Shown here: piece after piece, positions 26,924-56,473 of the stretch
Position numbering within the stretch: the stretch's first letter is position 1
Layout of the letters: each line of letters opens with the position of its first letter
NCBI GenBank assembly: GCA_001189275.1
Contig: CP012158.1
Coordinates: forward strand, 1,727,704-1,791,703
Origin: Pyrobaculum sp. WP30
GTDB lineage: Archaea > Thermoproteota > Thermoprotei > Thermoproteales > Thermoproteaceae
Direction: 5' to 3'
Length of the DNA: 64,000 bases
Notes under the pieces: model-generated
The model's input: only the letters and a program-made list of their open reading frames with translations
Database searches by the model: none
Told to the model about the DNA's origin: nothing
Position numbers and translations under genes: made by a program

Positions 26924-27211
26924 CTACCGCCTCCAGGCGGACCTATCGCTTAGAGCCCGGTTCACCTCCTCTGGCGTTGCGTTGCAGCCGTTTTTCCTCA
27001 GCCAGTCTGTCAGCAGTCGGAGGAATAATTCTGCGTTGTGTCTGCCGACGGTTTTCTCCAGTACTTCGTATGCCCGCCAAGGCTCCTCCACGAGAAAATA
27101 GTCAAAAGGCTTGCCGAAAGTTGCCAAGACGCGGTAATGGATAAGCGTACGCATGGCAAAAAACGCCGAGTCACCGTAAAACTTCGCCAGAAGCTCCCTT
27201 GTAATGCACAT
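26924..27211 (-). CDS. Small partner protein of a KaiC-like ATPase
   Basis: A 95-residue helical protein with the strongly conserved core FGKPFDYFLVEEPWR, then AYEVLEK and GRHNAELFL. It begins 1 nt after the stop of the KaiC-like gene. A paralogous gene at 41476-41757 has the same core and the same 1-nt spacing to another KaiC-like gene. Such single-domain proteins next to archaeal KaiC homologues have been proposed as signal-output partners. The exact family is not certain by eye. Confidence 0.7.
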   Translation of the reverse strand: MCITRELLAKFYGDSAFFAMRTLIHYRVLATFGKPFDYFLVEEPWRAYEVLEKTVGRHNAELFLRLLTDWLRKNGCNATPEEVNRALSDRSAWRR

Positions 27212-38604: not shown

Positions 38605-38713
38605 CGCGCACTCCCCAACACACACCTACCGAATACTGCACTCCTCTAAGGACAATTATCGCCTCTATTGACCGGATATATATTAAGCTCTGGTAGGTTT
38701 ACAACAAGATTTT

Positions 38714-39151
38714 TTGTCTATCACAGTGATATTTGTCTTTATCGTTGTAGATTCTTTTTTGCGTTTTTCTGCATCGTTCCCTCCTCGCGAAATTGTCGTC
38801 TATCCTTCTCGCGATAGCTTAATAGATTTTCACACTTTAGCTTTCAACCTTGTCTTACTTCTCCTCAGCTCACCTCCGTTGTTGTCTTTGCTTATGTTAC
38901 GCCGACCGAGCTCCGTGCGCGTACTCCTCCACGCGACATGCGTCCTCTACATACTCGTTGCACTGCCTCTGATGCTGAACTACTCGCCCCTACTCGTGTT
39001 GGTGATTTCCGGCGCCGCCCTTGTCGCCGGGTTGCCAGAGGCAATGGCGGTCGGCAGGTGGGCTAGATGGGTCTACTACGCCGCGCTTCTGCTTTGGCTT
39101 TTCCTCGTAGTCATGCCATGGACCTACTTCGTAGCTACGCTCATCTCATAG
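38714..39151 (+). CDS. Small membrane protein, family A paralogue
   Basis: A 145-residue protein with four membrane helices and the core PLLSLLMLRRPSSVRVLLHA shared with the protein at 37232. The start is uncertain: TTG 38714 is about 26 nt after an ATATATATTAAG box; GTG 38726 is possible. The gene ends 80 bp before the left copy of the pilin inverted repeat. Confidence 0.55.
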   Translation: MSITVIFVFIVVDSFLRFSASFPPREIVVYPSRDSLIDFHTLAFNLVLLLLSSPPLLSLLMLRRPSSVRVLLHATCVLYILVALPLMLNYSPLLVLVISGAALVAGLPEAMAVGRWARWVYYAALLLWLFLVVMPWTYFVATLIS

Positions 39152-39302
39152 CCTTCCGCCGTCAACACCCCCTCGTAGAGACATCGCTCTTGTCTGGTTG
39201 TGGTTTTCAGGTTTGGGGAAGCGGCGTCTTCGACGCTAACCACAACCTCAGAAACCCCAAGCATGTAGATATCTACCAAAATTAAAGAAATATTTTTCTG
39301 TG

Positions 39303-39434
39303 CCGCCGTGCCCCACTTTCATATGAAAAATATCTTTAAATTAGTAAAAACAAAACCCACATGAAAACCCGCCGTGCCCCACTTTCATATGAAAAACATC
39401 CTTAAATTAGTAAAAACAAAACCCACATGAAAAC
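39303..39434 (+). repeat. Two 66-bp tandem repeats carrying promoter and start codon
   Basis: Unit 1 (39303-39368) and unit 2 (39369-39434) differ at two positions. Each holds the TTAAATTAGTAAAAAC promoter-like box and an ATGAAAAC start about 25 nt later. The first ATG opens a 14-codon ORF ending in TAA; the second starts the pilin gene. A leader peptide or double promoter is possible. Confidence 0.85.
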
Positions 39435-39882
39435 CAAAATAAAAGGTCTCGAACCAGTAGTCGCCGCGGTGTTGCTAATAGTGGTGGCGGTGATAGGCGC
39501 GATGCTGGTGTACGTCTGGCTCACAGGCTACGTAACAAAAGCCACAAGCCAAGCCGAGTCAACGGCCACCTCAGAAAGGCTGAAAATAGAAGCCGCATCA
39601 TTCACATTTTACGACAACGGATCAGTCAGGCTTACACTCTACACGCGGAACATAGGCGGCGATGCCGTGAAGCTGAGGGGGCTCTACGTATTTAGGCCTG
39701 GATCACTCAACGCCCTCTGTTCAATTGGCATACCCGGCTTCCCCACGATAGATCCTGGGTACTACCGCGCAATATACAACATAAATCTGGATCGTTGCAA
39801 TATTGTACGTGGTAATGAATACGTGATTAAGGTAGTTACCCAGAAGGGTACTGAGTTCGCGATTACGGTCACCGCCACGTAA
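39427..39882 (+). CDS. Archaeal type IV pilin, left copy
   Basis: A 151-residue pilin. The class III signal KIKGLEPVVAAVLLIV has the basic-G|L-E-P cleavage pattern of prepilin peptidase and is followed by the hydrophobic assembly helix (residues 8-33). The rest is beta-rich. It matches the pilin at 46402-46848 at both ends but differs around residues 58-72 (FTFYDNGSVRLTLYT) and 115-130 (GFPTIDPGYYRAIYNINLDR). Two cysteines are conserved between copies. The gene lies alone, without downstream assembly genes. A T-rich terminator (about 39886-39900) follows. Confidence 0.85.
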   Translation: MKTKIKGLEPVVAAVLLIVVAVIGAMLVYVWLTGYVTKATSQAESTATSERLKIEAASFTFYDNGSVRLTLYTRNIGGDAVKLRGLYVFRPGSLNALCSIGIPGFPTIDPGYYRAIYNINLDRCNIVRGNEYVIKVVTQKGTEFAITVTAT

Positions 39883-39902
39883 AAAAATTCCTCTTTTTTC
39901 CT

Positions 39903-39978
39903 ATGTCTATTTCTTTTTTCCGGGGTTTGGACCTGGTGGTTGGCGCTCTTTTGCTTGTTATTGTGGTAGTTGGGGTCT
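39903..39978 (+). pseudogene. Truncated start of a second pilin-like gene
   Basis: MSISFFRGLDLVVGALLLVI and a few more residues match the start of the pilin-like gene at 46381, then homology stops at the inner repeat boundary and the frame runs into unrelated sequence. It marks the end of the duplicated cassette. Confidence 0.75.
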
Positions 39979-40005
39979 GTCGTCGGTGCACCACTCCCGC
40001 GGAGG

Positions 40006-40410
40006 CTACTCTGCCGAAGAGCCCCAGCCTCTGCGGCGTCTCAAAGATGGGGGAGTTGTCCTAATCTGGCCTCCGTCGTCATATCTCAAGACTGCTATAA
40101 CCTCTGCATTGATGCCCGTCACCTTCAATAGCCGGGCCGCAAGCTCGCCGCGGCCCCGATCAGTCGGGCGGAATTGGAGCTTGACCGCGTTTTCGCTCAG
40201 GTATACGTTATACTTCACGGCAACACCGCCCCCCGAAATGATCAAGTCGGCGGCTACATTGCCGCCGTCAGTCAACTTTACGCTACCGTCCAGAGACATG
40301 TGGGTGGTCGTAGGGGCGTCGCGGTTTCCGTGAGGACTCGCGGCATATGCGGTGGTATGCACATGCGCCCCGCCGCATAGTGACGAGCTTGGTGGAGGAG
40401 AGACTCGCAA
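40006..40410 (-). pseudogene. PaREP2b-like fragment
   Basis: The open frame contains GGGVAVKYNVYLSENAVKLQ, then FRPTDRGRGELAARLLKVTG and NAEVIAVLRYDDGGQIRTT, a pattern I associate with the PaREP2b family of Pyrobaculum. The ends look like junk, so this is an internal fragment of a larger gene rather than a complete protein. Confidence 0.5.
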
Positions 40411-40673
40411 GGCGGCACAAGAAAGGCATATACCTAATCAAGAGGGCGATAGAGACGGTTAAGAGTAAGGGCGATGGAGACGGCTGGTACATCAGAGCCT
40501 CAACGGTCGTGCTGGCGGCCGCGCGCGAGGAGCTCAGAAAAGCCCTGGCCGTGATTCATCAAGACAGCCCTTGCGAGGGGCTTGGTGGACGCCGGAGAGG
40601 CGGAGCGATGGGTGGAGAAGCTGGAGAGGGGAGTGGTGGCGTGGGAGGGTATGAAGTTCAAGGTGAGGCTTTG
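40347..40673 (+). pseudogene. PaREP2b-like fragment, frameshifted
   Basis: Plus-strand frame 1 reads KKGIYLIKRAIETVKSKG and GDGWYIRASTVVLAAAREEL with RKALAVI; after a frameshift near 40565 the next frame continues LARGLVDAGEAERWVEKLER and GVVAWEGMKFKVRL before a stop at 40673. These phrases fit the C-terminal part of PaREP2b proteins. It faces the minus-strand fragment next to it, so two decayed copies abut in opposite directions. Confidence 0.5.
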
Positions 40674-40813: not shown

Positions 40814-41479
40814 GTGGACGTGGAGATTGTGGTTAAAGACGTCCATAAGTACTACGGCGAGTACCCGGCGCTCAGAGGCGTGACGCTGGAGGTGCCTAAG
40901 GGGATCTTCCATTGCATCCTCGGACCCTCGGGGTCGGGCAAGTCTACTCTCCTCCACATAATCGGCGGTGTCGACAAGCCGACGAAGGGCGAGGTGGTGG
41001 TGGCCGGAGTCAGGCTGAACGACCTAAGCGACGACCAGCTGGCTGAGTTCCGGAACAGAAACATCGGCTTCGTCTTCCAGCTCTTCTACCTCATCCCCCG
41101 CATGTCTATCTTAGAAAACGTCGAGCTTCCCCTGATCCTCCGCGGTGTCCCCAGGGAGGAGAGGCGGAGGCTGGCGCTTGAGGCCCTCCAGCTCGCCGGC
41201 CTAGGCCACGTGGACCCCAAGAAGAAGCCCACCCAGCTCTCAGGCGGTGAGCAACAACGCGTCGCCATAGCCAGGGCCATAGTCACCAAGCCCCGCGTGC
41301 TCCTGGCAGACGAGCCCACCGGAAACCTCGACAGCGCCACCGCCAAGGTGGTCATGGACACCTTCCTCAACCTCAAGAAGCAACTCGGCATAACCATCGT
41401 GATGGTCACCCACAACCTAGAGCTCCTCCCCTACTGCGACCGCCACGTAAGAATGAGAGACGGAAAAATCGTGGACTAG
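40814..41479 (+). CDS. ABC transporter ATP-binding protein (LolD/MacB type)
   Basis: A 221-residue ATPase. Walker A is [12 protein letters not shown], the Q-loop [20 protein letters not shown], the signature [15 protein letters not shown], Walker [14 protein letters not shown] and the switch histidine MVTHNLEL. The [17 protein letters not shown] segment is typical of the LolD/MacB/FtsE-like subfamily that drives lipoprotein or peptide export permeases. GTG 40814 follows a CTATATAC box by about 22 nt. No permease gene is adjacent; the gene ends 4 nt into the convergent KaiC-partner gene. Confidence 0.88.
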
Positions 41480-41757
41480 CCCCAAGCCTCCTGGGCCGTC
41501 AGATAGCGCAAAACTTGGTCCTGCGTCACGTTGCATCCGTTTTTCTTCAGCCAGTCGGTGAGGATGTTTATAACCAGCTCGGCGTTGTGTCTGCCGAGGG
41601 CTTTCTCCAGCACTTCGTATACCCGCCAAGGCTCCTCCACAAGGAAGTAGTCAAAAGGCTTCCCAAAGGCGGCTAAGACCCTGTAATGCACAAGAGTACG
41701 CAAAGCGAAGTTCAACGCGCCGTAGAACCTAACTAAGAGTTCTTTTGTGAGGCACAT
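41476..41757 (-). CDS. Small partner protein of a KaiC-like ATPase, paralogue
   Basis: A 93-residue paralogue of the protein at 26924-27211, sharing FGKPFDYFLVEEPWRVYEVL and GRHNAEL. The gene starts 1 nt after the restored stop of the KaiC-like gene at 41759, the same spacing as in the other pair. It is intact even though the ATPase gene upstream is frameshifted. Confidence 0.7.
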   Translation of the reverse strand: MCLTKELLVRFYGALNFALRTLVHYRVLAAFGKPFDYFLVEEPWRVYEVLEKALGRHNAELVINILTDWLKKNGCNVTQDQVLRYLTAQEAWG

Positions 41758-41758
41758 A

Positions 41759-42842
41759 TCAACACTTTATCTTCTCTCCTATCCTTCCCTGCGGCCCCCT
41801 TACGCCGATTACGCTCCTCTCTTCCATCTGTACAATGACGTCGAACAACATGTCGAGGTTGTGTAGATTTCTTAGCAACACCACCACAGCCCTGCCGCCT
41901 CTGGCCATCTGTAGCAGAATCCGCAACACCATATATAACACAGAGGGGCCGTACATCGTGGACAACGCCTCTAAACCTCTGATAAACACCACGTCGCGGT
42001 CTGTAGAGGCCACTGCGGCAAACAACTCCTCTACGTTCAAATCCACCTCTACCGCATCTACTCCAAACCGCTCTGCATATACCGCGCCGGCGCCCGATAC
42101 GGAGATGTAAACGGCGCCCCCCCCCCTCCTTTAGGGCGCTCGCCGCTTTGAGCATAAGCCAAGTCTTCCCTGCGCCCACTGGGCCGACGATTGCGTGAAG
42201 CAGACCCTTATAGACCCCGCCCACCGCCTCGTCTAGACATGTGCCGGTGCTCAACTGCTCCGCCGCAGTCTTCGCCGGGGCCTCAGGCGTTAAGAACACG
42301 ATGCCCCTTCCCTCTCTTATGATAAACGGCATGGAGTAGCCTGCCTTCCCGCCTCGTATTTTCCTCACCACCACCTCTCTCAACGCACCGTAGGGATACA
42401 CCTCATATAGCAACTCTATCACGTTATCCGCCACGTAGGCAACTTTAGGGGCCACATCTTTTTCAGCTGTCAAAAACACGTCGACTCCGCTCTGCTTAAC
42501 TGCGCGGTAAAGCACGTTGTGGATAATGTCAAGCCCTCCGCCCCACGCCAACACCTCAGTCACTGAGTCTATGACGAGGACCTCCGGACGTTCCCGCGCA
42601 ACGGCGTCTAGAAGCGTGCCGAAAAACGCCTCAGCCTCGGCCAACGGCGCCTCCCAAAACACAAGCCGTTCTCCGAAATCGTAGCCAAAAGAAGCCATGT
42701 TCCGGCGGAACGTCGCCTCGTCCTCAAATACAGAAACCCAAAACACCCTTTTATAGTTGTGGTAGGTGTACCACGCGGCAAAGGTCGTCTTTCCGGCGCC
42801 TGGGGGTCCATATACAAGAGAAACTCCCCGTAGCCTAAACAT
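41759..42842 (-). pseudogene. KaiC-like ATPase gene with frameshift at a G10 tract
   Basis: The N-terminal frame carries a first P-loop GPPGAGKTTFAAW, Walker B EVLVIDSVTEVL and a second P-loop GPVGAGKTWLMLK. At 42117-42126 (C10 on the plus strand, G10 in the gene) the frame is lost: GGG is followed by RRLHLRIG instead of the sensible AVYISVSGAGAVY. The other frame continues with VDAVEVDLNVEELFAAV and RDVVFIRGLEALST to KIKC and stop. One G fewer (or two more) in the tract restores a protein of about 360 residues. Either a sequencing artefact, slippage-controlled expression or a young pseudogene. Confidence 0.75.
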
Positions 42843-42906
42843 AAGCGCAGAATAATCGTTTTTTATAAATCTTCCGTTATATTTTACAGTTAGAATTTAA
42901 TTCGAA

Positions 42907-43692
42907 TTATATATTTGTCATAGAATCAAATATTAGGTAGAAGACGATCCCAACAATCGGCGTGTAGACTAGACCCATTAACATCATCAACGTCAAGGGG
43001 TCGATTCCGAGGCCCCCAACCTCTAGGTTGCCGAGTGGGCTGAAGGACAGCGCCACTATGTAAACCATGATGGGAAGCAACATCACTGCCACTACGAAGA
43101 TTTCAAACATAAGCGAGAGCGACCTCACCAGCGACTGCGCCTTTACCTGCTTCGTCCTTAGGGCCCAGTCCAGCCTGGCCAGGAGGGCTATGTCTATCCT
43201 CTGCGTAATCCTCGCCGCCTTTGTCAAAACCTCCACAGTCTCCCGGTAGGTGGGGCTCGGCGTCCTCTCTGCGCTGTTCCGCAGAGCCTCCTCCGGCGTG
43301 GCCCCCATGACGATCATCTCCCGCGCAGCCAGCGCCAGCTCCCTTGCGATGTATTTATCCTCCTCCACCTCTGCCAGCCGTGTCACGGCTCTGCCGAGGG
43401 GCACCTCCGCCGCGAGAAGAGGCAGAAGGACACCTAGAGTGTAGACGAAGTTGTTCTCAAAGTGGCTACGCCGCGCAGTGACTAGGTGGACGGGGTACAG
43501 CACAAGCCCGGCGAAGGCTAGAAGCGCCGCCATGAGGCCGAAGGCGGCGCTGGCTAGGGGACCCAGGAGGAGGAGCCCAGCCACGCCGGCTGCCGTCCCG
43601 GCGGCTAAGGGCACCAGGGCGAGGGCTGCCATGTACCTCCGGTAAGAGAAAGCCAGCCCGCTCTGCCGGTAAAGCTCGTAAAACAGCCTCAT
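42907..43692 (-). CDS. Type IV pilus TadC-like membrane protein 2
   Basis: A 261-residue T2SF/TadC-domain protein with membrane helices at about residues 20-60, 190-212 and 235-257. The cytosolic central part (RLAEVEEDKYIARELALAAR to LDWALRTKQVKAQS) is the T2SF helix bundle that contacts the ATPase. Its ATG overlaps the stop of the ATPase gene (ATGA). Together with the protein at 45140 it makes up the two-part assembly platform seen in crenarchaeal pili. Confidence 0.78.
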   Translation of the reverse strand: MRLFYELYRQSGLAFSYRRYMAALALVPLAAGTAAGVAGLLLLGPLASAAFGLMAALLAFAGLVLYPVHLVTARRSHFENNFVYTLGVLLPLLAAEVPLGRAVTRLAEVEEDKYIARELALAAREMIVMGATPEEALRNSAERTPSPTYRETVEVLTKAARITQRIDIALLARLDWALRTKQVKAQSLVRSLSLMFEIFVVAVMLLPIMVYIVALSFSPLGNLEVGGLGIDPLTLMMLMGLVYTPIVGIVFYLIFDSMTNI

Positions 43693-45167
43693 ATCTTTCC
43701 GGCCTTGGCCGCCTCCAGCGCGGCCTCGGGGTTTAGGTGGTACTGTGTGAACACCTTAGCGACGATATACGGCGTGGAGTAGCCCCGCTCCACCATCGCC
43801 GCGATCAGCTCCCTACGCCTCTTGTACTCGGCCTTGAGGAAGTCCAGCGACACAAACCGCGTCCTTGCGATGGTCTCTAGATGTCTGCTCTCTTCTACAG
43901 GCTCCAACACGTCTTTCTCCGGGTTCCACCGGAAGATGTAGTGGAGGCGGGGTCTGCCGCCTCGCGCCACGCCCATGTTTTCGGCGATCTCCACCACTCT
44001 ACGCACTATGCTGTTCCCCACCTTGACCCTCAAGACCCTGACGAAGACGTGGGCGAGGCCGACCAGCATAGGCGGCACGTTCATGGGCCGAGTCAAGAGA
44101 CGCCTCACCGCATCTTCGATAGTTTCGGCGTGTATCGTCGTGGCGCCGGTGTGGCCCGAGCCGAAGGTCTGGAACAACACATACGCCTCCTCCCCCCTCA
44201 CCTCCCCCATCACTACGTAGTCGGGCCGCGACCTCAAGGCTATGGCCAAGAGGTCGAAGGCTGAAACGTCTCTGACCGCTTCTGCCCTAGACGGCCTCGT
44301 GACTAAGGCCTGCCAGTGCTCATGGACGATGTTGATCTCCCTAGTGTCCTCAATAGTGAGGATTTTGGCATCCGGCCTGATTAGGTACAGCAGAGCGTTT
44401 AGGAGGGTGGTCTTCCCCGCGCCGGTGGGGCCCACGATCACGATGTTGCGGCCGTAGTCCAGCATAAGCCAGAGGTAGGCGACAGCGTCCGCCGAGATCG
44501 TGCCCATCTTCACCATATCCACAAGCGTGATGGGCACCACGAAGTATTTCCTAATCACGAAGGAAGGCCCCCTGTAAGAGATGGGCGGCGCCGCCAATTC
44601 GACACGGAAGCCCTCAGGGAGCGTCCCCTCCAAGATGGGGTCGGCGTAGGAGACAGACTTCCCCACCAGCGCCGAAACCCTCTGCACGTAGCCGTCGAGG
44701 TCGTCGGGAGACAGCACGACGTCGGTCTTAAGAGATTCCCACCGGCTGTGCCATACGTAGACGTGCCCAGGCCCGTCCACGTGGACGTCCTCTATGTAGG
44801 GGTCCCGCACCAGGGGGTCAAGCACCCCGTACCCCAGGAAGTCCCGCCGCAGGTAGTACATCATCTTCCCCCAAGTCCTCTCATCGAGCTTAATCTTAAA
44901 CTCGGCCACCGCCCTCTTCGCCAGCTCATCGAGGTACTCCGCCCGCCTCTCCCGCGCAAGCCTCAAACCACCGTCCCGCGCCTCACCCACGTTTTGTATA
45001 GCCCGCTTGAGCCGTGCCAGCGTCTCTACCTCTTCCCTAGACAGGGGAGGCTCCACAGCCCTATACCGCCTAAAGCCCTCTTTATCAACGTATACTACTG
45101 CACGTACGAGATCTGAGATCTCGTACTGGTCTAGGACCTTCAAAACTTCATCCACTGCGGAGCCCAT
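43689..45167 (-). CDS. Type IV pilus assembly ATPase (TadA/GspE family)
   Basis: A 492-residue secretion ATPase that powers pilus assembly. Landmarks are the N-terminal GVLDPLVRDPYIEDVHVDGP domain, Walker A IVGPTGAGKTTLLNAL, the Asp box ILTIEDTREI, Walker B PDYVVMGEVRGEEAYV and the His box GHTGATTIHAET. The C-terminal 60 residues form a helical tail. It overlaps both adjacent TadC-like genes, indicating a tightly coupled operon. Confidence 0.9.
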   Translation of the reverse strand: MGSAVDEVLKVLDQYEISDLVRAVVYVDKEGFRRYRAVEPPLSREEVETLARLKRAIQNVGEARDGGLRLARERRAEYLDELAKRAVAEFKIKLDERTWGKMMYYLRRDFLGYGVLDPLVRDPYIEDVHVDGPGHVYVWHSRWESLKTDVVLSPDDLDGYVQRVSALVGKSVSYADPILEGTLPEGFRVELAAPPISYRGPSFVIRKYFVVPITLVDMVKMGTISADAVAYLWLMLDYGRNIVIVGPTGAGKTTLLNALLYLIRPDAKILTIEDTREINIVHEHWQALVTRPSRAEAVRDVSAFDLLAIALRSRPDYVVMGEVRGEEAYVLFQTFGSGHTGATTIHAETIEDAVRRLLTRPMNVPPMLVGLAHVFVRVLRVKVGNSIVRRVVEIAENMGVARGGRPRLHYIFRWNPEKDVLEPVEESRHLETIARTRFVSLDFLKAEYKRRRELIAAMVERGYSTPYIVAKVFTQYHLNPEAALEAAKAGKI

Positions 45168-45910
45168 AGCCCCACCGCCAGTATTACCGCCGCCGCGCCC
45201 GCATGAACGAGACCCGCCCGCGGGCCCCCGTACACCACCCTGCCCACGATTAGCCCGCCCACGACTGCACTTACGAAGCCGGATATATAAAGAACGCGGA
45301 TGACATCCCCCTGCTCCAGAACCACCGGCTCGATGCCTTGTTGCGTCGGGGCTGAGGCTGTGAGCTGGGCAAGCTGCGGCAGAAGCATGTAGACCAAGAC
45401 GTCAGCCAGCACCGCGAAGACGGCCACCACTGCGTAGAAAAGAGCCACGTAGGGCCTGAGCTGAGAAGCCACCGCCTGCCGGAACTCCACCACTGTGGCG
45501 AAGCTCCGCGCCGCCACGTCCAGCACCTCCGGAAACCTCGCCCCCGAACGCGCCGCTTCAGTCACAATGAGAGCAAACCTCCTAAAGTTAGGCGAGGGTA
45601 TCTCCTTAGCCACCCTCCACAGCGCCTCCTCCACCGTGAGCCCGCCTACCTCAGTCAGCGACAGAACCTGCCTAAGCACATCTCTCATAGGCCTAAGCGC
45701 CGGCGCCGCCGCAGACTCCACAGCCCCCTTCAAGCTAAGCCCCGCAGAAACTGCGTCAGAAAGCACACGCAAAACCTGCGGAATCTGCCCCTCAAGCCTA
45801 AACACATACACAGCCCTCCTCCACGCCCCAACACCCACCAACGCCAACGCCAACCCCGCCGCCACCCCCACAACAAACACCAAATCAAACATATCAAAAA
45901 CCTGCCACAT
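45140..45910 (-). CDS. Type IV pilus TadC-like membrane protein 1
   Basis: A 256-residue T2SF-domain protein: an N-terminal membrane helix (FDLVFVVGVAAGLALALVG), a cytosolic T2SF bundle with the phrase AVSAGLSLKGAVESAA and FRRFALIVTEAARSGARFPE, then three helices near the C-terminus. ATG 45910 is 1 nt after the stop of the second pilin gene; ATG 45892 is also possible. It overlaps the ATPase gene by 28 nt. Confidence 0.78.
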   Translation of the reverse strand: MWQVFDMFDLVFVVGVAAGLALALVGVGAWRRAVYVFRLEGQIPQVLRVLSDAVSAGLSLKGAVESAAAPALRPMRDVLRQVLSLTEVGGLTVEEALWRVAKEIPSPNFRRFALIVTEAARSGARFPEVLDVAARSFATVVEFRQAVASQLRPYVALFYAVVAVFAVLADVLVYMLLPQLAQLTASAPTQQGIEPVVLEQGDVIRVLYISGFVSAVVGGLIVGRVVYGGPRAGLVHAGAAAVILAVGLWAPQWMKF

Positions 45911-45911
45911 A

Positions 45912-46381
45912 TTAACTAGCAAACACAACAGACGCCTCCGCCCCGCGGGCAGTCACCAACTTAACCACATACACAGCCCCAGACACAACAGCCTCCCCAC
46001 ACCCAGCCACTACACCACCACCAACGTCAGACGGCGGTCCCACCGGCATCCAAACATCAAGATACTCCAAACGCACCGGCCCCACAACCCAAGGAAGACC
46101 ATCAGCAAAACACACAACGTCGCCGTTGTATACATACACCGTACGCGGCAACACAGCGCCCCCACCCAAATTACGAACCCACAGAAAAACCCTCACACCC
46201 CCACCCAAGTTAGTGACATAGCCCCCTCGATCTTCAACACATCCGGGGCAAACTCCGCAGAAGGCGCCGCTTTCCCCAAACCTAAAAACCACATCCATAC
46301 AAGAAAGACCCCAACTACCACAATAACAAGCAAAAGAGCGCCAACCACCAGGTCCAAACCCCGGAAAAAAGAAATAGACAT
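45912..46381 (-). pseudogene. Second pilin-like gene, frameshifted
   Basis: Frame 1 starts MSISFFRGLDLVVGALLLVI, a class III signal (R-G|L-D) plus hydrophobic helix, and runs to KIEGAMSLTWVGV and stop. Frame 2 continues GGGVRVFLWVRNLGGGAVLP, then TVYVYNGDVVCFADG, to VVFAS. Adding one G to the GGGTGGGGG stretch (near 46193-46206) gives an uninterrupted pilin of about 155 residues. It lies 20 nt downstream of the first pilin and directly before the TadC-like gene. Confidence 0.7.
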
Positions 46382-46401
46382 AGGAAAAAAGAGGAATTTT
46401 T

Positions 46402-46848
46402 TTACGTGGCGGTGACCGTAATCGCGAACTCAGTACCCTTCTGGGTAACTACCTTAATCACGTATTCATTACCACGTACAATATTGCAACTAGTCACATT
46501 TATGTTGTATATTGGGCGGTAGGACCCAGGATCTATCGTGGGGGTGCCGGGTATGCCAATTGAACAGAGGGCGTTGAGTGATCCAGGCCTAAATACGTAG
46601 AGCCCCCTCAGCTTCACGGCGTCGCCGCCTATGTTCCGCACGTAGAGTGTAAGCACGCCTGTTGTTCCGTTGAGTGATGCGGCTTCTATTTTCAGCCTTT
46701 CTGAGGTGGCCGTTGACTCGGCTTGGCTTGTGGCTTTTGTTACGTAGCCTGTGAGCCAGACGTACACCAGCATCGCGCCTATCACCGCCACCACTATTAG
46801 CAACACCGCGGCGACTACTGGTTCGAGACCTTTTATTTTGGTTTTCAT
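46402..46848 (-). CDS. Archaeal type IV pilin, right copy (operon head)
   Basis: A 148-residue pilin, first gene of the pilus operon. The signal and assembly helix (KIKGLEPVVAAVLLIV and onward) and the C-terminal 20 residues (EYVIKVVTQKGTEFAITVTA) are identical to the left copy. Differences are confined to LNGTTGVLTLYV near residue 58 and TPTIDPGSYRPIYNINVTS near 115. It is likely the major pilus subunit. The promoter is duplicated in tandem upstream (46841-46972). Confidence 0.87.
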   Translation of the reverse strand: MKTKIKGLEPVVAAVLLIVVAVIGAMLVYVWLTGYVTKATSQAESTATSERLKIEAASLNGTTGVLTLYVRNIGGDAVKLRGLYVFRPGSLNALCSIGIPGTPTIDPGSYRPIYNINVTSCNIVRGNEYVIKVVTQKGTEFAITVTAT

Positions 46849-46972
46849 GTGGGTTTTGTTTTTACTAATTTAAGGATGTTTTTCATATGAAAGTGGGGCA
46901 CGGCGGGTTTTCATGTGGGTTTTGTTTTTACTAATTTAAGGATGTTTTTCATATGAAAGTGGGGCACGGCGG
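46841..46972 (-). repeat. Two 66-bp tandem promoter repeats of the pilus operon
   Basis: Same tandem repeat as at 39303-39434, here on the minus strand. Both units carry AAGGATG in place of the AAAGATA variant found in unit 1 of the left copy. Each unit contains a TTAAATTAG box and an ATG about 25 nt downstream. Confidence 0.85.
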
Positions 46973-47010
46973 CACAGAAAAATATTTCTTTAATTTTGGT
47001 AGATATCTAC

Positions 47011-47412
47011 ATGCTTGGGGTTTCTGAGGTTGTGGTTAGCGTCCTCCTTTTGCTAGTTACGGTACTGCTGGCGGCCACAGTCGTGTCGTTTTTCTTCAAC
47101 GTGGTGTATAGCCCCGCCCAGTCCCAGTTTGTGCTTGAGGGCGCGAAGCCGCTGTGTACGGCGCGGGTGGTGGCCGTGGCGGACAACGGGAGCGGGTACG
47201 CGAGGATCTATGTCTACAACAGGGGCAACTCCTTATGCATATTTGACACGGTCTACGCAGTATATAACGGCGCTGTGGTGGACAGGGGCAGTATATATCT
47301 GCGTGTACAACCCGGCCAGGTGGGCTTCAACGACACCACCATCCGCTACATGCCGGGCTGGGCGTACCGCCTGACTGGTCCAAGAGGCGAAGTTGCAGAG
47401 GGGAGGCCATGA
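47011..47412 (+). CDS. Pilin-like protein, divergent from the pilus operon
   Basis: A 133-residue protein. MLGVSEVVVSVLLLLVTVLL resembles a class III signal (G|V-S-E) plus assembly helix; the rest is a small beta domain with two cysteines (KPLCTARV and NSLCIFD). ATG 47011 is about 26 nt after an AAATATTTCTTTAA box. The first 11 codons lie inside the inverted repeat. It overlaps the next gene by 4 nt and may be a minor pilin of the same structure. Confidence 0.7.
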   Translation: MLGVSEVVVSVLLLLVTVLLAATVVSFFFNVVYSPAQSQFVLEGAKPLCTARVVAVADNGSGYARIYVYNRGNSLCIFDTVYAVYNGAVVDRGSIYLRVQPGQVGFNDTTIRYMPGWAYRLTGPRGEVAEGRP

Positions 47413-56047: not shown

Positions 56048-56473
56048 GTGGGTCCGTGGGCGTCGGTGGAGGGCATTGGGCCCGTTGTTGTTGCTAATAG
56101 TAGCGGCAGTGATAGGCGCGGTGTTGGTGCACCTCTGGTTCGCAGGCTACGTAGCAGAAGCCAAGCCGAGTCAATGGCCGCCTCAGAAAGGCTGAAGATA
56201 GAAGCCGCATCACTCACGGCTGGCACAGTCGGATCCGGCGCGGCCGTGTTGCGGCTCTACGTATGCAACGTGGACAGAGCCGCTGTTGACGTGGTGGACG
56301 TCTATGTGTATAGGCCGGGAACTGCAGGTCTCCGGCCTCTACTTTCCCCACAGTCCGGCGAGCATGCGCAGTGCACAAGCCGCCCGGGTGCGGGATCTAC
56401 CCGGGATACGACTATGATTAAGCCCGTCACGCTGAAGGGCACCGGGTTGGTGGCCGCCGTCACGGCATCGTGA
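56048..56473 (+). pseudogene. Third pilin gene, decayed by two frameshifts
   Basis: Fragments match the pilins at 39427 and 46848: SVEGIGPVVVA (frame 1), then LLIVAAVIGAVLVHLWFAGY with VAEA (frame 2), then QAESMAASERLKIEAASLTA and VLRLYVCNVDRAAVDVV (frame 1 again). The end ITLKGTGLVAAVTAS-like tail aligns with the pilin C-terminus. Two indels separate the parts. It lacks the 66-bp promoter repeats. Confidence 0.75.

Follow-up and report, generated by a model that had tools for sequence, protein, structure and literature searches.

The analysed window, a 64,000-nucleotide stretch of the complete 1.99 Mb genome of Pyrobaculum sp. WP30, carries two pilin genes, A and B, that are 93% identical and lie about 7 kb apart in inverted orientation. 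The genes form the cores of a pair of inverted-repeat arms separated by 6.3 kb. Identity between the arms (~740 bp) extends beyond the pilins, taking in the promoter region as well as the beginnings of the two neighboring genes. The features of the locus are listed in Table 1.

Table 1. Features of the pilin A and pilin B loci (positions within the window).
Feature	Position	Strand	Remarks
Copied pilin2 piece	39186..39231	+	upstream side of arm A; 39188-39231 matches 46304-46260, 89%
Whole inserted block	39186..39977	.	~792 bp, within genomic repeat copy
Inverted-repeat arm A	39232..39977	+	~740 bp; 96% over 750 columns vs arm B
Tandem 66-bp duplication upstream of A	39303..39434	+	promoter-like sequence and start codon
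Pilin A	39427..39882	+	ORF, 151 aa; derived extra copy
Patch 1	39601..39663	+	12 substitutions in amino-acid-changing codons, 1 synonymous, net 9-bp indel
Patch 2	39739..39793	+	8 substitutions in 6 codons, every one amino-acid-changing
Pilus operon between arms	41733..46381	-	Pfam T2SSF, T2SSE, KaiC; gene order
KaiC-like	41733-42842	-	pilus operon
TadC, second	42907-43692	-	pilus operon
ATPase	43689-45167	-	pilus operon
TadC	45140-45928	-	pilus operon
pilin2 (frameshifted)	45912-46381	-	downstream of pilin B
Inverted-repeat arm B	46303..47043	-	partner of arm A
Pilin B	46402..46848	-	ORF, 148 aa; ancestral, heads type IV pilus operon
Tandem 66-bp duplication upstream of B	46840..46971	-	matches 66-bp duplication upstream of A
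Divergent pilin-like gene	46996..47412	+	first ~15 codons copied into arm A
Third pilin remnant	56089..56473	+	frameshifted; 84% DNA similarity to pilins, ending at patch 1 boundary

Both proteins have the architecture of archaeal type IV pilins: a short charged leader (MKTKIKG, cut after the glycine), a hydrophobic helix beginning LEPVV, and an Ig-like C-terminal domain. The B operon supplies the linked assembly ATPase and TadC genes (one T2SSE and two T2SSF genes). Matches to the class III signal peptide family Pilin_N scored 24.9 and 20.9 bits, both slightly short of the 25.2 cutoff (pilin A, E 0.00066, below cutoff). A whole-pilin search of the genome returned no close copy beyond A and B, and a scan of the genome contigs for close relatives returned nothing. 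None of the nine orthologues inspected had a visible 66-bp tandem duplication upstream.

All coding differences between the two pilins lie in two patches, as the earlier note had claimed, although its span (39580-39850) did not take in pilin B (46402-46848). The conserved ends are slightly longer than it described: residues 1-58 are identical, where 57 had been given, and identity at the C-terminus covers the last 28 residues (A 124-151) instead of about 20. Patch 1 corresponds to A residues 59-73, close to the 58-72 proposed, and contains the predicted 9-bp length difference as a net indel. Patch 2, placed at 113-130 in that note, falls a few residues away at A 105-123. Between the patches are 31 identical residues (A 74-104).

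The aligned arms differ by 23 substitutions and the indel. Only two of these substitutions fall outside the patches, both upstream of the gene in the first 66-bp unit, and the four longest identical runs measure 265, 187, 94, and 75 bp. Clustering of this degree was equalled in none of 20,000 random placements. Differences were neither evenly spread nor mostly synonymous; 20 of the 21 coding substitutions occurred in amino-acid-changing codons. Counted per nucleotide, 1 of 21 was synonymous, where random changes would give 26% (p about 0.01, for a single gene pair in which neighboring substitutions may be non-independent). A per-codon count, slightly dependent on gap placement, gave 14 non-synonymous changes and one synonymous change. 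None of 79 fourfold sites differed between A and B, including none of 35 in the middle region.

Among relatives, the order ABC transporter, KaiC-like gene, TadC, ATPase, TadC, pilin, and divergent pilin-like gene is largely kept, so that the B locus is syntenic, and relatives have one such pilin. Pilin B therefore occupies the ancestral site, and the present orientation of the operon is ancestral. In one relative (G012; L070, 7779-8337) the pilin faces away from the assembly operon, unlike most other relatives. The frameshift in pilin2 lies at a run of five G residues near 46224; pilin2 may be a pseudogene, the run may be a phase-variable tract, or the frameshift may be a sequencing error. The pilin2 counterpart in G003 likewise has stops.

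Copy A is a duplicate of the B pilin module at an ectopic site. It is inverted and circularly permuted, and was inserted within one member of a genomic repeat family. Arm A contains the cut-off starts of both genes that flank pilin B, namely about 15 codons from the divergent pilin-like gene and 76 bp from the beginning of pilin2. Directly upstream of arm A, a 45-bp piece of pilin2 resumes precisely where arm B ends (46304-46260), so that the A block has the order of the B block in circularly permuted form. This piece matched 46304-46260 within the window at E 2e-8, and genome-wide its best match elsewhere was the same pilin2 site (E 1.6e-9), with none better.

The bounds of the insertion (39186-39977) follow from uninterrupted copies of the target repeat. 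Sequences flanking the block join without a gap in L079 and L082 and with a 3-bp gap in L078; in L079 the empty target site reads CATC followed directly by TGTCGTCGG, the insertion point falling between the two. Together with the truncated starts of both B-flanking genes, these uninterrupted paralogues identify A as the derived copy. The repeat family (38606-40448 plus L078, L079, L080, L081, and L082) has several copies in the genome, is uncharacterized, and had no match in Pfam or NCBIfam.

The junctions suggest how the copy formed. A module consisting of the promoter region, the pilin, and the starts of both neighbors would have been copied from B and would have moved as a small circle or a head-to-tail intermediate. 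Site-specific insertion of a circle, of the serine-recombinase or IS605 type, was rejected because the closing and opening points of the circle would have been about 43 bp apart. The permuted insertion is an unusually clear trace of the formation of an archaeal gene copy.

The 45-bp pilin2 piece bears directly on why the arms are now so similar. Outside the arm it has five differences in 45 positions (11%), while the same gene inside the arm has 0 of 76 (p 0.006); set against two differences in about 375 near-neutral arm sites (synonymous and non-coding), p was 0.0002, in both cases from a small sample of 45 bp and five differences. A remnant more diverged than the arm beside it is unlike a plain recent copy and favors later homogenization of the contiguous arms. 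Gene conversion, proposed in the earlier note, is thus the likely reason that the flanks have stayed identical; recombination between the two inverted arms after the insertion would have maintained their identity, a reading to which the remnant lends moderate support short of proof.

The patches themselves are another matter: conversion probably did not make them, and they do not resemble tracts taken from a diverged allele. They lack synonymous divergence, and a genome search for a patch 1 donor returned nothing beyond A, B, and 24 bp of the third remnant. In Neisseria pilE/pilS antigenic variation, a conserved N-terminus is likewise combined with variable patches; here, neither the patch 1 search nor the whole-pilin search revealed silent cassettes that could have supplied the patches. 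A diversity-generating retroelement was rejected, as the genome has no RVT_1 reverse transcriptase; three of the control genomes were positive.

Selection for variation in exposed loops, as originally suggested, is supported by one synonymous change in 21, by none at the fourfold sites, and by the position of the patches in predicted loops. In the middle region pilin B is nearer than pilin A to all nine outgroups, although this comparison slightly favors B since the extra A residues were scored as mismatches; A has probably changed more. Diversifying selection acting mainly on A fits the patches best, judging from the substitution pattern, and would have altered two loops of the Ig-like domain without changing the assembly helix or the C-terminus.

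An unlikely alternative does without gene conversion altogether: the gene would have been duplicated recently, and two loops would then have come under very rapid positive selection. It accounts for the uniformly low neutral divergence of the arms (one synonymous and two upstream differences) and for patches that bear no synonymous imprint. The 11% divergence of the copied remnant outside the arm counts against it, since pilin2 is frameshifted and presumably near-neutral.

Comparison of sister species showed how this part of the pilin evolves elsewhere. In two pairs, G003/G005 and G004/G009 (pilin middles compared at loci L065 with L068 and L066 with L067), the TadC-ATPase part of the operon was mostly 90-98% identical and the pilin middle about 30-60%. 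Fourfold sites in the pilin middle differed at 12 of 13 positions (G003/G005) and 12 of 25 (G004/G009), while for the ATPase gene the corresponding figures were 11% and 6%. The G009 middle was 55% identical to that of G017, a member of another genus, versus 36% to its sister G004, and shared an insertion with the genus of G017; the ends of the G009 pilin matched G004 at 94% and 92%. Sister species swap this pilin region by recombination. The comparison marks the same part of the pilin as both fast-evolving and exchangeable across the genus. The A and B patches lack such import-like synonymous change, which points to amino-acid-changing mutations or very short tracts.

Import is also the basis of a second alternative, in which A came from another strain whose pilin allele already had both loops changed. 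Sister-species pilins differ mainly in this region, the middle has been exchanged across genera, and a different strain of origin would also account for the diverged 45-bp remnant. Imports between species carry synonymous changes (12 of 25 fourfold sites in G004/G009) against 0 of 35 in the A/B middle; import may instead have been at the level of strains. Overall, this origin is rated distinctly unlikely.

The arrangement of the arms also recalls a switching system, in which recombination between them would flip the pilus operon or shuffle the loops to give phase or antigenic variation. The arms (~740 bp) are inverted, nearly identical, and bracket the assembly operon, and a crossover between the patches would yield hybrid pilins. 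With regard to a Moraxella-type invertible pilin segment, inverted arms exist and the orientation of the operon relative to its neighbors is ancestral; the idea of a currently inverted operon was rejected on synteny. Each copy has its own promoter region, so a flip would give no obvious expression switch, and patch 1 has no donor in a genome without a reverse transcriptase. It is improbable that the arms recombine in living cells in a way that inverts the operon and reassorts the patches; were they to do so, this would be an archaeal pilin-variation system needing no dedicated recombinase. Decay of a non-functional A, a truncated module outside the operon, is the least credible reading, because its ORF is intact without a stop or frameshift and the changes bypass the cysteines as well as the helix and C-terminus, whereas lost constraint would have scattered them everywhere.

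The preferred reading, an ectopic permuted copy, homogenization of the arms, and loop diversification mostly on predicted pilin A, is given a probability of about 0.6. A monomer model built from the A/B alignment (mean pLDDT 71, modest confidence) contains a helix at residues 9-49 and seven strands. In this model patch 1 falls in a beta-hairpin loop around residues 61-64 of B, and patch 2 in the loops on either side of strand 110-117, beside the second conserved cysteine. At this modest confidence, the patches map to loops of the Ig-like domain. Predicted N-glycosylation sequons are located at mature residues 53 and 110 in B and only at 57 in A: the patch 1 sequon shifts position between the copies, and the patch 2 sequon (NVT in B) is missing from A. 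With a shared assembly helix and changed loops, the cell would have two predicted major pilins with different surfaces.

The nearest solved structure, by both sequence and fold, was 8fk7 (E 1.4e-37), the type IV pilin of Pyrobaculum calidifontis, which belongs to the same operon type. The pilin of G010, in the same genus, reads like the 8fk7 chain and is 53% identical; there the pilin is single-copy. The Pyrobaculum arsenaticum pilus has an Ig-like globular domain, is bound by the virus PFV2, and shows one N-glycan, at Asn55 (PMC7347861). By residue number, Asn55 is near the patch 1 sequons (mature 53 and 57).

The closest precedent is the pilA1/pilA2 pair of Sulfolobus islandicus, and the present pair is ordinary in kind and informative in detail. 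S. islandicus has two highly similar, adhesive major pilins per genome, encoded close together on opposite strands in the studied strain; they are required for infection by several viruses and show codon-level diversifying selection, which was read as virus evasion (PMC7217056). Both systems combine a near-identical pilin pair per genome (here 93%) with a signature of diversification, found here as 20 of 21 amino-acid-changing substitutions in one pair. The A/B host differs in belonging to another archaeal order, its copy A can be traced to a permuted insertion within a repeat element, and its two pilins differ in two loops only. It is a further instance of a known paired-pilin kind, and its origin is recorded unusually well.

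Given PFV2 binding in Pyrobaculum and the S. islandicus precedent, both of them known from relatives, virus pressure is a likely cause of the loop variety; from the literature, pilus-binding viruses and/or adhesion are the likely selecting force. Since pili serve as virus receptors in hyperthermophilic archaea, loops that vary amid a fixed remainder would mark the contact surface, and the A/B pair offers a ready-made test, being two pilins that differ in those loops only. A study of flagellin diversity describes conserved ends and a highly diverse middle within one filament protein (PMC7018530). The sister-species pilins likewise combine a conserved and a diverse region in a different protein.

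Additionally, a second, diverged repeat pair (83%) was found in the window at 27030-27160 and 41579-41709, the latter within a small ORF (41476-41757) adjoining the pilus operon.
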